From assembly GCF_000379625.1 (NCBI RefSeq), contig NZ_KB903245.1, forward strand, positions 215,124-279,123: 64,000 nucleotides of DNA, in the 5' to 3' direction. Below the pieces are notes generated by a model. The model made no database searches, had not been told where the DNA came from, and saw nothing but the letters and a program-made list of their open reading frames with translations. Positions 24,023 through 29,799 of this stretch are shown here, piece after piece; position 1 is the first letter of the stretch, and each line of letters begins with the position of its first letter. This stretch comes from Actinomycetospora chiangmaiensis DSM 45062 (GTDB lineage Bacteria; Actinomycetota; Actinomycetes; Mycobacteriales; Pseudonocardiaceae). Position numbers and translations under genes: made by a program.

Positions 24023-25309
24023 TCAGCCCCGGGGGTAGGCCGGGAAGCGCCCCACCAGGGCCGACACGGCGTCCCGGGTGTCGGCGAGCGTGCGCTTGCC
24101 GTCCTCGGTGGTCTCGTCGGCGGTGACGGCCGCCGCGATGAGGCGCGCGACCTCCGGCATCTCGGCCGGCGTCATCCCCTGCGTCGTGATCGACGGGGAG
24201 CCGACGCGGATGCCCGAGGCCACCATCGGGGGCTGCGTGTCGTACGGGATCGCGTTCTTGTTCAGCGTGATGGCGGCGAGCCCGCTGCGGGCCTCGGCCT
24301 CCTTGCCGGTGACCCCGAGCGGCGACAGGTCGAGCAGCGACAGGTGGGTGTCGGTGCCGCCGGAGATGGCGCGCATCCCGTGCTCCACCAGCCCCGCGGT
24401 GAGGGCCTGCGCGTTCTCGATGACCGTCCGGGCGTACTGCTGGTACTCCGGGGTCGCGGCCTCGGCGAGGGCGACGGCCTTGCCGGCGACGGCGTGCATG
24501 AGCGGCCCGCCCTGCAGGAACGGGAAGACTGCCTTGTCCAGGGCCTTCGCGTGCTCGGCCTTCGAGACGAGCATGCCGCCGCGCGGGCCGCGCAGGACCT
24601 TGTGGGTGGTGAAGGTGACGACGTCGGCGTAGGGCACCGGGCTGGGGATCGCCTGGCCGGCGACGAGCCCGATGAAGTGGGCCGCGTCGACCCAGAGGAT
24701 CGCGCCGATCTCGTCGGCGATCTCGCGGAACCGCGCGAAGTCGATGAGGCGGGGGTACGCCGTGGCGCCCGCGACGATCATCTTCGGCCGGTGCTCGAGC
24801 GCGAGGTCGCGCACCTGGTCGTAGTCGATGAGGTGGTCGTCCTCGCGCACCGTGTAGGGCACGGGCTCGAACCACTTGCCCGAGAAGCTCACCTTCGCGC
24901 CGTGCGTGAGGTGGCCGCCGTGCGGCAGCGACATGGCGAGCACCTTGTCGCCCGGCTGGCAGAACGCGGCGTACACCGCGAGGTTCGCGTTCGCGCCGGA
25001 GTGCGGCTGCAGGTTCGCGTGCTCGGCGCCGAAGAGGGCCTTGGCCCGCTCGATGCCGATCTCCTCGGCGCGGTCGACGACCTCGCAGCCGCCGTAGTAG
25101 CGGCGGCCGGGGTAGCCCTCGGCGTACTTGTTCGACAGCGTCGACCCGAGCGCCGCGAGGACCGCGGGGCTGGTCAGGTTCTCGCTCGCGATGAGCTGGA
25201 GTCCGCCGCGGAGCCGACCGAGTTCGTCGTCGAGGACCTGCGCGATCTCGGGGTCGACGGCGGAGAGGGACCCGAAGTCCGGGCCCCAGAAGTGGTCGGT
25301 GCTTGCCAC
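24023..25309 (-). CDS. glyA: Serine hydroxymethyltransferase
   Basis: 428 aa from GTG at 25309 ([12 protein letters not shown]); an upstream start at 25324 adds only five residues. PLP enzyme interconverting serine and glycine with tetrahydrofolate, the main one-carbon source. [46 protein letters not shown], and the PLP-lysine segment [16 protein letters not shown] are intact. It is not part of the mycobacterial version of this gene cluster, so it marks a local rearrangement. No glycine riboswitch is visible in the 99 bp upstream. Confidence 0.96.
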
Positions 25310-25408
25310 GGTGCAGTACCTCACTCAGGTCGGGATGTCGGCGTCGATCGACGGTACCCGCCGTTCGGCGGACGGACCGGGTGCTTTGTGCGCCCTGTCA
25401 CCGCCTCG

Positions 25409-26419
25409 TCACCAGTCGGCGATCGTCAGCGACGTGCTCGGTCGCGGGCGTTCCTGCAGGCCACGGGCCCGGTAGTCCCAGGCCGCGAGCCCGATCATCG
25501 CGCCGTTGTCGGTGGACCAGCGCAGGGGCGGCAGGCACAGCTCGACGCCGGTCCCGCTGCACAGCGCCGCCGCCCGCTCGCGCAGCTGCGGGCTCGCCGC
25601 CACCCCGCCCACGACGACGAGGCACCGGCTCGGGTACCGCTCCAGCGCCTTGCGGCACTTCGACAGCAGCACGTCGAGGCACGCCTCCACGAAGCTCGCC
25701 GCGACGTCGGCCGGCGGGTGGTCCGGGTTCGCCGCGAGGAACCGCGACACCGCGGACTTCAGCCCGGAGAAGGAGAAGTCCAGCTCCAGGTCCCTGCCCG
25801 GGCGGGGAAGGTCGACGTCGGGGGTCCCGGTCTTCGCGAGCCGGTCGATCGCCGGGCCGCCGGGGTAGCCGAGGCCGAGCATGCGGGCGACCTTGTCGTA
25901 GGCCTCCCCCACCGAGTCGTCGCGCGTGGACCCGACGAGGGCGACGTCCCCGTTCTCCTGCACGTGCGCGAGCAGCGTGTGGCCGCCGGACACGAGCAGC
26001 ACCATCGCCGGGTACGTCACGCGCTGCTCGTCGAGGTCGGCCGAACGTAGGTGCCCGCGCAGGTGGTTCACGCCGTACACCGGCAGGCCCCACCCGTCGC
26101 CCAGCCCGACCGCGGAGTTCGTCCCGACGACGAGGCTGCCGATCAGCCCCGGACCGCGCGTCACCCCGATCGCGGTGAGGTCGGCCGGGGTGAGCCCGGC
26201 GTCGTCGAGCACCTTGCGGACGGTCGGCAGGATCGCGTCGACGTGCGCGCGGCTCGCCATCTCGGGGTAGACGCCGCCGTAGCGGTCGTGCAGCTCGACC
26301 TGACTCGCGACCGCCGACGCGACGACCGTGCCGTCGGGCCGGACGATCGCGACACCGGTGTCGTCGCACGAGGTCTCGATGCCCAGCATGAGTTCGTCCG
26401 GGGCGATCGGGTCAGCCAT
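25409..26419 (-). CDS. tsaD: tRNA N6-adenosine threonylcarbamoyltransferase TsaD
   Basis: 336 aa. ASKHA-fold protein that transfers threonylcarbamoyl to A37 of ANN-decoding tRNAs (t6A). Visible: LGIETSCDDTGVAIV at the N-terminus, the metal-binding VNHLRGHLRS (HxxxH), LLVSGGHTLL, FSFSGLKSAV, VVVGGVAASPQLR and CLPPLRWSTDNGAMI. It overlaps the upstream TsaB-Sua5 gene by 8 bp, so the t6A enzymes are made together. Confidence 0.96.
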   Translation of the reverse strand: MADPIAPDELMLGIETSCDDTGVAIVRPDGTVVASAVASQVELHDRYGGVYPEMASRAHVDAILPTVRKVLDDAGLTPADLTAIGVTRGPGLIGSLVVGTNSAVGLGDGWGLPVYGVNHLRGHLRSADLDEQRVTYPAMVLLVSGGHTLLAHVQENGDVALVGSTRDDSVGEAYDKVARMLGLGYPGGPAIDRLAKTGTPDVDLPRPGRDLELDFSFSGLKSAVSRFLAANPDHPPADVAASFVEACLDVLLSKCRKALERYPSRCLVVVGGVAASPQLRERAAALCSGTGVELCLPPLRWSTDNGAMIGLAAWDYRARGLQERPRPSTSLTIADW

Positions 26420-27722
26420 GGGTCAGCACCCTCTCGATCTCCGCCGCCGGGATCGCGCCCTCGCGCTCGATGCGCGGCGTCTCCAGGTGGCAGTTGACGA
26501 CCGTCGACGGCACCCCCGAGCGCTCCCCGCCGTCGACGACGGCGTCGGGGCGGCCGGCGAGCTGGGCGAGGATGGGGCCGGTCGCCTGGGCGGTCGGTTC
26601 GCCGTGCGCGTTCGCGCTGGTCACGAGCAGGGCGCCGACGTCGGAGAGCAGGGCGCGCAGGTCGGGGTCGGCCGGCACGCGCACGCCGACCTCGGCGCGC
26701 CCGGCCAGCCACGCGGGCGCCGTGTCGTCGATGCCGAGCGCCACGGTGATCGGTCCCGGGGAGAAGGCGCCGAGCAGCCGCCGCGCGGTGTCGGGCACCT
26801 CGACGCCGAGGCTCGGCAGTTCGTCGGGGGTGGCCACCATGATCGGCAGCTCCCGGGTCCGCGGTCGCGCCTTGAGCGCGAACAGCGTGTCGATCGCCTC
26901 CCGACGGCGCGGGTGGACGGCCAGCCCGTACACCGTGTCGGTCGGCAGCAGGGCGACGCCGCCCGCGAGCAGCGCCTCCCGCGCGGCGGCCCAGGCGTCG
27001 CCGCGGAACCGCACGCTCGACTCGGTGAGCGGCGCGGCGCTGACCACGGGCGGCTCGTGGTCACCGCACCGCAGCGCGGCGACGAGGTCGTCGATCTCGG
27101 GCGCGTCGATCCCGGCGTCGGTCGCCTCGACCCCGAGATCGGCGAGCAGGGCCAGTGCCTGCGGTCGCTTGGCCCCGGCGACGCGGAGGCCGACGCCCGG
27201 ATTCGGACGAACGGCCCGTTCGTCACCCTCTTCCGTGACGAACGGGCCGTTCGTGGCAGCGGAGGTGCCCGAGGTGACCGCGCCCGGCGTCGGGAAGAGG
27301 TCCTTCAGGACGACCGCGAGGTCGCCGTGGCGGGTCGCGACGGTGCCGTCGGCGCGGGTCAGGGCCGCATAGACGGCGGTACCACCGGCCATCCGCAGGG
27401 CGAGCGTGGGCCCGCCCCGGCTCAGCAGGGCGAGCGCGTCGAGGCCGATGACCGGGATCTCCCGGGCGAACGCGACGGCGTTGACGTAGGCGATCCCGGC
27501 GCGCACCGAGGCGAGATTGCCGGGGCCGACGTCGACGGCGAGTCGGTCGAGGTCGGCCACCGTGCGTCCGCCCTCGGCGATGACGGAGCTCGCGAGCACG
27601 CCGACGTCGACGAAGCCGGGGTCGGAGCGGTCGGCGCTCGCCCGGGCGAGCACCTCGTCGTCGTCGAGCAGGGCGACGCCGTAGACGCGGGAGGAGGTCT
27701 CGACGGCGAGGGTGAGGGTCAC
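26412..27722 (-). CDS. TsaB-Sua5/TsaC fusion protein (t6A synthesis)
   Basis: 436 aa from GTG at 27722, overlapping the tsaE stop (GTGA). Residues about 1-145 are a TsaB-like ASKHA domain (LTLAVETSSRVYGVALLDDD, LAVDVGPGNLASVRAGIAYVNA, PVIGLDALALL). Residues about 235-436 are a complete Sua5/YrdC domain (GGVALLPTDTVYGLAVHP, LFALKARPRTRELPIMV, GPITVALG, VTSANAHGEPT, PSTVVNCHL). Sua5 makes threonylcarbamoyl-AMP from Thr, bicarbonate and ATP; TsaB is the scaffold for TsaD. The usual TsaB partner in fusions is RimI, which is absent here. The linker (about 150-235) contains an inverted-repeat insertion (about residues 157-172). A second stand-alone Sua5 gene lies at 28236. Confidence 0.9.
   Translation of the reverse strand: MTLTLAVETSSRVYGVALLDDDEVLARASADRSDPGFVDVGVLASSVIAEGGRTVADLDRLAVDVGPGNLASVRAGIAYVNAVAFAREIPVIGLDALALLSRGGPTLALRMAGGTAVYAALTRADGTVATRHGDLAVVLKDLFPTPGAVTSGTSAATNGPFVTEEGDERAVRPNPGVGLRVAGAKRPQALALLADLGVEATDAGIDAPEIDDLVAALRCGDHEPPVVSAAPLTESSVRFRGDAWAAAREALLAGGVALLPTDTVYGLAVHPRRREAIDTLFALKARPRTRELPIMVATPDELPSLGVEVPDTARRLLGAFSPGPITVALGIDDTAPAWLAGRAEVGVRVPADPDLRALLSDVGALLVTSANAHGEPTAQATGPILAQLAGRPDAVVDGGERSGVPSTVVNCHLETPRIEREGAIPAAEIERVLTHG
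27207..27254. repeat. Inverted repeat within the TsaB-Sua5 linker
   Basis: Perfect 20-bp arms (acgaacggcccgttcgtcac and complement) around an 8-nt loop; each arm is itself nearly palindromic. It is in frame and encodes roughly TNGPFVTEEGDERAV in the interdomain linker. Confidence 0.93.
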
Positions 27723-28180
27723 GCGTGCACCGCCACCGCGTTCAGGACCGCGTCCCACCGGCCGGCGCCGGTCAGCGTGATCGTCCGCCCCGTGTCGCCG
27801 TGCTTCGCGAAGGTCAGGTTCAGCGGCTCGGGGAACTCCGAGGCGACGAGGCCGGCCCACTCGATCACCGCGATCACCTCGTCGAGGTACTCGTCGAGCC
27901 CGAGGTCGCGGAACTCGGCGACGTCGTCGAGCCGGTAGGTGTCGACGTGCAGCACCCGCGGCCCCGGGGTGTCGTAGAAGTTGGCCAGGGAGAACGTCGG
28001 GCTGGTCACCGCCGCGTCGGAACCCAGCGCGGCCACCAGCGCGCGCGTGAAGGTCGTCTTGCCGGCCGCCAGGTCCCCGGTCAGCAGCAGGGCGTCGCCC
28101 GCGCGCAGGTGGGGGGCGATGGCCGCCGCGACGCGCGCCGTGTCGTCCGGTCCGCCGCTGGAGAAGGTCACCTCGTTCAT
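27719..28180 (-). CDS. tsaE: tRNA threonylcarbamoyladenosine biosynthesis ATPase TsaE
   Basis: 153 aa. P-loop ATPase of the t6A complex: Walker A LLTGDLAAGKTTFTRALV, SPTFSLANFYDT, LHVDTYRLDDVAEFRDLGLDEYL and VIEWAG are the TsaE pattern. ATG at 28180 is preceded 9 nt upstream by TATCAT and also has GGAG close by. First gene of the tsaE-tsaB/sua5-tsaD operon. Confidence 0.94.
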   Translation of the reverse strand: MNEVTFSSGGPDDTARVAAAIAPHLRAGDALLLTGDLAAGKTTFTRALVAALGSDAAVTSPTFSLANFYDTPGPRVLHVDTYRLDDVAEFRDLGLDEYLDEVIAVIEWAGLVASEFPEPLNLTFAKHGDTGRTITLTGAGRWDAVLNAVAVHA

Positions 28181-28235: not shown

Positions 28236-28880
28236 TCAGGCGACGACGGGCTGCCGCCCCAGCACCTCGGCGATCTGCGCGAGGCTCACGGCGCCCTCGC
28301 GCCGCACCACGGGGTCGGTGCCGGTGAGGTCGACGATCGTCGACCCCGCGTCCGTGGCCATCGGCCCGCCGTCGAGGTAGACCTCCACCAGGTCCCCCAG
28401 CTGCGAGTACGCGTCGGCGCACGTGTGCGGCACCGCTCCCCCGGCGGCGTTCGCGCCGGTGATCGCCATGGGCCCGCACTCGCGCAGCAGCTCCAGCGCC
28501 ACCGGGTGCAGCGGCATGCGCAGCACCACGGTGCCCCGGGTGCGCCCGAGGTCCCAGGCCAACGACGGGGCGTGCGGCAGGACGAGGCTCAGGCCGCCGG
28601 GCCAGAACGCCTCGATGAGGTCGCGGGCGGTGCTCGGCACCACCGACACGAGCCCGTCGATCGTCGACCAGCTCCCGACGAGCACCGGCACCGGCGTCTC
28701 CGGCCCACGCCGCTTGGCCACGAGCAGCTCGCGCACGGCGTTCTGGTCGAAGGCGTCCGCGCCGACGCCGTAGGAGGTGTCGGTGGGCACGACGACGAGC
28801 CGCCCGGCCCGGACCGCCGACTGCGCCGCCGCGAGCCCGGCCGCACGGGTGTCGGGGATGCGGCAGTCGAACGTCGTCAC
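28236..28880 (-). CDS. Stand-alone Sua5/YrdC protein (threonylcarbamoyl-AMP synthase)
   Basis: 214 aa from GTG at 28880, 7 nt after TAGGGT. Sua5/YrdC fold: AGRLVVVPTDTSYGVGADAF, ELLVAKRRGPETPVPVLVGSW, FWPGGLSLVLP, GPMAITGANAAGGAVPHT and DAGSTIVDLTGTDPVVRREGA. It lies directly after prmC, the conserved position of sua5 (Rv1301) in Actinobacteria. The organism therefore has two YrdC-type domains within 2.5 kb; which one makes threonylcarbamoyl-AMP is unresolved. Confidence 0.92.
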   Translation of the reverse strand: MTTFDCRIPDTRAAGLAAAQSAVRAGRLVVVPTDTSYGVGADAFDQNAVRELLVAKRRGPETPVPVLVGSWSTIDGLVSVVPSTARDLIEAFWPGGLSLVLPHAPSLAWDLGRTRGTVVLRMPLHPVALELLRECGPMAITGANAAGGAVPHTCADAYSQLGDLVEVYLDGGPMATDAGSTIVDLTGTDPVVRREGAVSLAQIAEVLGRQPVVA

Positions 28881-28893: not shown

Positions 28894-28947
28894 GCGATCG
28901 CGGGCGCGTGGATGGCGGCCCGACCGGTGATCATGGCCGGGGACCGC

Positions 28948-29799
28948 TCAGGCCCGCGTGCCCACGGCCACCCGCGGCCGTCCGGTCAGGTCGAGGCGGG
29001 TGCCCAGGGCGGTGAAGCCCGCGGCGCGGAGGACCGCCAGCACGTCGTCGGCGTGCGACTCGTCGTGCTCCACGGCCACGCGGCCCCCGGGCCGCAGCAG
29101 CCGGGCCGCCGTCAGGGCGAGCGGTCGGATCACGTCGAGCCCGTCGGCCCCGCCGAACACGGCCCGGGCGGGGTCGTGGCCGACCTCGGGCGAGACCGGG
29201 GTGCCGGCGGGCACGTAGGGCGGGTTGGCCACCAGGAGGTCCACCGTGCCGTCCAGGTCCGCCAGCGTGTCCGGGGCGGTCACGTCGCCCTCGACGAGGG
29301 TCGCGCCCGACCCGGCGAGGTTGCGGTCCGCCCAGGTGAGCGCGGCCGGGTCGGCCTCGACGGCCCACACCGCGGCGTCGGGACGGGCGACGGCCAGCGC
29401 GAGGGCCAGCGCGCCGGAGCCCGTGCAGAGGTCGACGACGACGGGGGTCGCGGTGCCCCGCAGGCTCGCGACGCCCTCGGTGAGCAGCACCTCCGTCTCG
29501 GGCCGCGGGACGAACACCCCGGGACCCACCGCCACCGACACCGGTCCGAGCACCGCCGACCCCACGACGTGCTGCAGCGGCTCCCGCGCCGCCCGCCGCG
29601 CGACCAGCTCGTCGAGGCGGCGGGAGGCCTCGTCGTCGAGATCGGGGGCCAGCACCAGCCGGGTGCGGGGGATGCCGAGCACGTGGGCGGCGAGGAGTTC
29701 GGCGTCGACGCGGGGGCTGTCGAGCCCGGCCGCCGCGAGGCGCGCCGCCGCGGCCGCGACGCGCGTCCGGGTCGGGTGGGTCCCCGTCGACGAGGTCAC
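28948..29799 (-). CDS. prmC: Peptide chain release factor N5-glutamine methyltransferase
   Basis: 283 aa. Methylates the Gln of the GGQ motif in release factors using SAM. Motif [17 protein letters not shown], the substrate-binding NPPYVPAGT, and RPETEVLL are present. The start overlaps the prfA stop by 4 bp, so substrate and modifying enzyme are translated together. Confidence 0.95.

Follow-up and report, generated by a model that had tools for sequence, protein, structure and literature searches.

Which of two YrdC-family proteins makes threonylcarbamoyl-AMP (TC-AMP) for the tRNA modification N6-threonylcarbamoyladenosine (t6A) when a bacterium encodes both side by side? The question is raised by a t6A locus of Actinomycetospora chiangmaiensis DSM 45062, which we analysed in a window of 64,000 nucleotides (contig NZ_KB903245.1, positions 215,124 to 279,123). 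One gene of this locus joins TsaB to a YrdC/TsaC domain in a single chain and lies between tsaE and tsaD in overlapping frames, with a stand-alone sua5 just upstream of the operon (Table 1). An earlier note on this DNA had proposed both the fusion operon and the separate sua5, and both are borne out, the fusion gene being on the minus strand. The note suggested that the fused YrdC may be a redundant, specialised or dead second copy, a view that is probably inverted: the fused domain has the whole catalytic tetrad, whereas the stand-alone Sua5 is without the SxN serine. We propose, with a probability of roughly 0.74, that an acquired cassette replaced native tsaE, tsaB and tsaD, that its fused YrdC is the working synthase and that Sua5, released from this task, lost its serine and was otherwise kept.

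The YrdC domain of the fusion scored above the curated cut-offs of TIGR00057 (129.5 bits versus 123.2) and PF01300 (138.4 versus 25.1). The TsaB domain stayed below the NCBIfam cut-off of TIGR03725 (62.9 bits versus 69.3), as did most of the other fused proteins (three of nine passed: G015, 71.8; G016, 71.6; G044, 82.2), and we therefore regard it as a divergent TsaB. Comparison of structure models matched this part to the TsaB/YeaZ fold and the remainder to the YrdC fold. By family-model match and fold, the ASKHA part of the fusion is TsaB, and TsaD is a separate gene. A frameshift, which the earlier note had named with a missed stop as a possible refutation, or an assembly artefact is ruled out by the identical frame in eight genomes, one of them a single-contig assembly. 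The fusion also recurs in close relatives: of 18 Actinomycetospora genomes, that of A. chiangmaiensis included, eight (hereafter type A) encode the two halves in a single frame. Across the relatives set, 9 of 61 genomes have the fused form, namely these eight and G044 outside the genus.

In the available text of two papers (PMC9654439, PMC10321239), the catalytic motif is given as a KxR...SxN tetrad. Both KxR and SxN were present in 14/14 cassette YrdCs that we read, including the ATP-binding lysine and arginine (K284, R286) of the A. chiangmaiensis fusion. Stand-alone Sua5 (P0003) lies above the family cut-off (TIGR00057, 180.8 bits versus 123.2), keeps K, R and N and has glycine for the serine (KRGN), and we therefore do not class it as an active TC-AMP synthase, a judgement made from its sequence. 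Sua5 lacked the serine in 15/15 actinobacterial carriers of the cassette. The replacement is glycine in the eight Actinomycetospora genomes and in G057 (whose Sua5, divided between two contig ends, was partly read), alanine in G044 and three g88 genomes, and methionine in G404, where N is also changed to S, and in a Pseudonocardiales metagenome-assembled genome (MAG; L110), where K is also changed to R. K, R and N are still kept in 13 of the 15 carriers. Among non-carriers, 80 of 81 control loci read KRSN. These loci represent 74 distinct genes (seven are duplicates), or 72 if only the resident copy is counted in G040 and in G050, and the tetrad is intact in 71 of the 72; we did not find the Sua5 of G008. 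The exception is G050 (L178, L179), which carries no cassette. Its resident Sua5 is without the SxN serine and, when aligned pairwise, shows a gap in place of K and G in place of R; its second YrdC reads KRSN. Another tetrad-bearing YrdC occurs in the same genome with all 16 Ser-less Sua5s observed. In three Celeribacter genomes with a related operon, PF01300 has no match other than the YrdC of that operon.

How often the serine was lost was read from a Sua5 tree that included 39 of the 72 single-copy controls and excluded G050 from this control set, which also served for a count of conserved columns. The Ser-less copies do not form one clade but fall with their own taxa: types A and B of Actinomycetospora together (support 90), the L110 MAG with G019 (99), family f9 (100) and f15 with G050 (100), and the Sua5 of G404 lies inside family f1 with weak support (34). 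This scatter points to losses in about five lineages. The possibility that Sua5 was itself part of the transferred cassette was ruled out by the same placements. Sixty-one columns are at least 95% conserved in the 39 non-carriers, and 17 of these are altered in some carrier. The serine, present in 39/39 non-carriers, is the sole one altered in all five lineages; when changes were placed at random, the fraction of trials with a column struck in all five was 0.00027, a figure that ignores differences in mutability between columns. Residue M80 of P0003, near KxR in the sequence, is Met in 38/39 non-carriers; four of the five carrier lineages have T or L there.

We then compared the loci within the genus. 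In a tree built from four proteins encoded at the alr–groEL locus (the queries include an alpha/beta hydrolase, alanine racemase and the NAD(P)H-hydrate enzyme), seven type A genomes split from seven type B genomes, each with support of 100. The cassette of type A is located between sua5 and the gene that we take to be glyA; these two genes are adjacent in the eight type B genomes whose sua5 region was examined, which places the cassette between them. The native tsaE-tsaB-rimI genes lie between the hydrolase gene adjoining alr and groES–groEL in 7/7 type B genomes examined. At this native site, 7/7 type A genomes examined (L134–L140) have lost tsaE and tsaB and retain rimI, the loss of tsaE being read from this locus and not from a genome-wide TsaE search. 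Neither a canonical TsaB nor a second TsaD was found in the eight type A genomes, where the TsaB model matched only the cassette TsaB and TsaD. Absences in G014, which is 59% complete, carry little weight, and some other genomes are also incomplete. Cassette TsaDs are separated from native TsaDs in the tree with support of 100. From these gene contents and trees, the cassette of type A is a xenologous replacement of the transferase genes. Two other genomes, G018 (L088, L089) and G027 (L093, L094), each have two TsaD genes, one in a tsaB-rimI locus and one elsewhere, the latter clustering with type B Actinomycetospora TsaD at a support of 100.

The cassette also exists without the fusion. Separate tsaE-tsaB-yrdC-tsaD genes are present in G057, G404, the three g88 genomes, the L110 MAG and the three Celeribacter genomes. 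A short overlap of tsaB with yrdC was observed in G057, G404, the three g88 genomes and, as judged from the frames read, L110. In every cassette read, yrdC is placed between tsaB and tsaD. The cassette is rare: an even draw of the order contained it in 8 of 397 genomes, three of them fused, and an even draw of the phylum in 1 of 396, the genome of A. chiangmaiensis itself (cut-offs of 1e-36 and 1e-44). The other 50 matching genomes of the order draw had an ordinary Sua5 by score and span. In the family of Celeribacter, the YrdC half was matched at E <1e-60 in 4/198 genomes, in one of which the genes were examined. A tree of the concatenated cassette proteins joined the fused G044 to the unfused G057 (100) and kept the proteins of Actinomycetospora in one group (100), on a weak backbone (46–51) in which Actinomycetospora is set apart from f9 by a support of only 51. 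A clade of fused forms only was rejected in the approximately unbiased (AU) test (p = 8e-5), and Actinomycetospora as sister to f9 was not (p = 0.365). We consequently dropped the tree as proof of two fusions; with Actinomycetospora sister to f9, one fusion followed by a re-split in G057 costs the same number of steps as two fusions. Either there were two separate fusions or a single one that was split again in G057; this count and that of the serine losses depend on trees with weak backbones.

Both YrdC copies are under purifying selection. Ratios of nonsynonymous to synonymous substitution rates (dN/dS) were obtained by the Nei–Gojobori method (NG86) from 21 pairs among seven type A genomes and, for Sua5 of type B, from 28 pairs. 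In type A, the ratio is 0.152 for the Ser-less Sua5 and 0.157 for the YrdC part of the fusion, with 0.374 for the TsaB part, 0.188 for TsaD, 0.328 for TsaE, 0.103 for glyA and 0.248 for the gene that is presumably prmC. Type B Sua5 has a ratio of 0.191. The low ratio of the Ser-less Sua5 indicates selection for something, be it another role or residual activity.

Our proposal combines these results as follows. The sequences themselves show the fusion, the displacement of the native genes, the state of each tetrad, the recurrent serine loss and the purifying selection; enzyme activities, the sequence of events and channelling we infer from them. One Actinomycetospora clade acquired the t6A transferase cassette tsaE–tsaB::yrdC–tsaD horizontally in place of native tsaE, tsaB and tsaD, and the TsaB-fused YrdC domain would act as the synthase that forms TC-AMP out of threonine, bicarbonate and ATP. 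Resident Sua5, freed from TC-AMP synthesis and now making little or none, would then have lost its catalytic serine and been retained for another role. In solved complexes the C-terminal tail of TsaB reaches onto TsaD, according to the available text of PMC9654439. In actinobacterial cassettes TsaB ends shortly after a tail resembling P(L/I)xxx(S/T)xxF, and the YrdC part of the fused proteins begins a few to some 20 residues behind this tail. Since YrdC is attached behind the tail that reaches TsaD, it is expected near TsaD, and the fused YrdC most likely makes TC-AMP beside TsaD, probably next to the TsaD active site. Channelling of TC-AMP in the fusion, an idea of the earlier note that we find sensible, is a hypothesis. 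The revised tree supports leave the odds of the proposal unchanged, because it rests on motif states and replacement.

Several observations weigh against this proposal. The need for the SxN serine is judged from conservation in the family, and we found no mutational data on this serine in the accessible literature. G050 belongs to f15, has no cassette and nevertheless has a Ser-less Sua5, so the loss in f15 may have another cause, and G040 has an intact resident Sua5 together with a second KRSN YrdC, so the loss is not a necessary result of having a second enzyme. The Ser-less Sua5 of g88 has a dN/dS of 0.066–0.107 compared with 0.182–0.402 for the cassette YrdC, and in type A it is conserved like the fused YrdC; it may have residual synthase activity. 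Overlapping genes can be fused by one indel, which need not mean channelling. The serine was also lost alongside unfused cassettes, and the second fused case, G044, is a single MAG. Some of these points fit an alternative in which both YrdC proteins make TC-AMP: Sua5 proteins of this subfamily would not need the serine, and the fused YrdC would add dosage or a second, local pool. Retention of K, R and N in most carriers, the strong purifying selection on Sua5 and its high family score would agree with two active enzymes, but we consider this unlikely given that the serine is universal in the tree-set non-carriers and uniquely lost in all five lineages, that N in G404 and K in the MAG have gone as well, and that each Ser-less Sua5 is accompanied by a tetrad-bearing YrdC.

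The converse idea, in which Sua5 is still the synthase and the fused YrdC a passenger without function, draws on the presence of a separate, conserved Sua5. It is very improbable: the motifs are intact in every cassette YrdC read, the fused domain is itself under selection, its relative is the only YrdC found in three Celeribacter, and the broken motif belongs to Sua5. We therefore rejected a dead fused YrdC. A more serious contender, although we would still bet against it, holds that the cassette works equally well fused or unfused and that the YrdC is a working synthase without channelling, the fusion being a neutral accident. It departs from our proposal solely at the channelling step, so that the odds of the two overlap. 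The loss of the Sua5 serine with unfused, overlapping cassettes is in its favour, as fusion was then not needed for the takeover; retention of the fused frame in eight Actinomycetospora genomes, the second fused case and the constant position of yrdC between tsaB and tsaD speak for more than accident. Rather more tentative is an extension of our proposal, in which a tethered, perhaps channelling t6A machine evolved, possibly twice, and, wherever the actinobacterial cassette took over, resident Sua5 was repeatedly turned into a conserved non-synthase through loss of its one catalytic serine. On the same tentative footing, selection would remove free TC-AMP production while Sua5 would persist in a different and possibly older function.

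Fusions of TsaC domains with catalytic ASKHA domains are already known. TsaN carries out threonylcarbamoylation with a single chain in which a TsaC domain comes after an ASKHA (TsaD-like) domain; the fusion shares this general plan, and among the 50 structure matches listed TsaN is the best over both halves (369 residues, root-mean-square deviation (rmsd) 6.9); GdmN also spans both, loosely (318 residues, rmsd 21). The available text of PMC11077089 describes TsaN as joining TsaD and TsaC in one chain with additional SUA5 and TcdA domains and as modifying ADP/ATP. In the fusion, by contrast, TsaC is attached to non-catalytic TsaB, and TsaD is not in the same chain. TobZ and HypF likewise join YrdC to an ASKHA domain, TobZ in the same order as the fusion (Kae1 then YrdC), and these carbamoyltransferases with YrdC-like and Kae1-like domains pass the intermediate through an internal channel (PMC9654439, available text). 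They serve nebramycin synthesis and hydrogenase maturation rather than t6A, and their partner domain is catalytic, unlike TsaB. The modules of TobZ, HypF and TsaN are functional analogues of the proposed TC-AMP production beside TsaD. Canonical bacterial TsaC with TsaD-TsaB-TsaE has the same four predicted activities as the cassette, and the TsaB and YrdC folds match; TsaC is normally free, whereas the type A cassette has it joined to TsaB and the free Sua5 lacks the serine. The available text of PMC10321239 calls YciO an inactive paralogue of TsaC. YciO resembles the Ser-less Sua5 as a YrdC-fold protein retained although it is not, or in the case of Sua5 appears not to be, the synthase. Unlike YciO, this Sua5 is a housekeeping orthologue that adjoins prmC as in type B and has only the serine column lost in every lineage. 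The same source reports loss of the endogenous gene after transfer of sua5 or tsaC; in Actinomycetospora, endogenous sua5 was kept with a broken motif. Among the literature matches listed, which leave most subscription journals outside their coverage, we found no TsaB–TsaC fusion and no Ser-less Sua5 beside a second YrdC. According to the earlier note, TsaB is fused with RimI in many Actinobacteria. That arrangement also sets TsaB beside another protein of the t6A locus, although in the type B loci that we read the two genes are adjacent and separate, and type A has lost tsaB from the native locus and kept rimI. The xenologous cassette displacing native genes, its unfused form and the repeated serine loss in Sua5 had no place in the earlier note.

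Table 1. Features of the fusion operon and its surroundings (positions in the window).
Feature	Position	Strand	Details
tsaB::yrdC fusion	26412..27722	-	GTG start, 436 aa; TsaB ~aa 1-235, YrdC/TsaC ~aa 239-435
YrdC/TsaC domain of fusion	26412..27008	-	aa 239-436 + stop; tetrad K284, R286, S369, N371 complete
TsaB domain of fusion	27018..27722	-	~aa 1-235
Cassette tsaE	27719..28180	-	153 aa; 4-bp overlap with fusion
Cassette tsaD	25409..26419	-	336 aa; 8-bp overlap with fusion; tree position apart from the native TsaD of the genus
Resident sua5 (P0003)	28236..28880	-	214 aa from GTG, start as in relatives; SxN Ser -> Gly (TGAN); alternative start ATG at 28934 gives 232 aa
Presumed prmC	28948..29799	-	upstream neighbour of sua5
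Presumed glyA	24023..25324	-	next gene downstream of cassette
Dispersed palindromic repeat	27207..27254		in frame in TsaB part (TNGPFVT...ERAVRP)

The TsaB part of the A. chiangmaiensis fusion additionally contains a dispersed repeat, a perfect 20-nt inverted repeat (ACGAACGGCCCGTTCGTCAC) with an 8-nt loop. The stretch containing it, aa 148–175, has a predicted local distance difference test (pLDDT) value <50 in the model of the fusion. Near-matches to the repeat core were found 42 times forward and 45 times reverse in the genome, compared with 0 in the control (both strands counted). Of 25 repeat loci inspected, 22 were outside genes according to the gene caller, and two of the other three are the TsaB site itself. 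In aligned TsaB DNA the repeat is present in G000 and G007, with apparent remnants in G016 and G001 and none in G010 and G015.

Among the few tRNA modifications that are universal is t6A, and it is an open question whether TsaC hands the unstable TC-AMP directly to TsaD. A naturally occurring TsaB–TsaC protein can be set against unfused sister cassettes, which serve as its matched controls, and this hand-over becomes directly testable. Repeated loss of a single catalytic serine from a Sua5 that is still conserved is a natural experiment and suggests a function of Sua5 besides TC-AMP synthesis. If the tethered machine and the conversion of Sua5 that we tentatively describe are real, they would reveal a second role for the universal Sua5/TsaC family.
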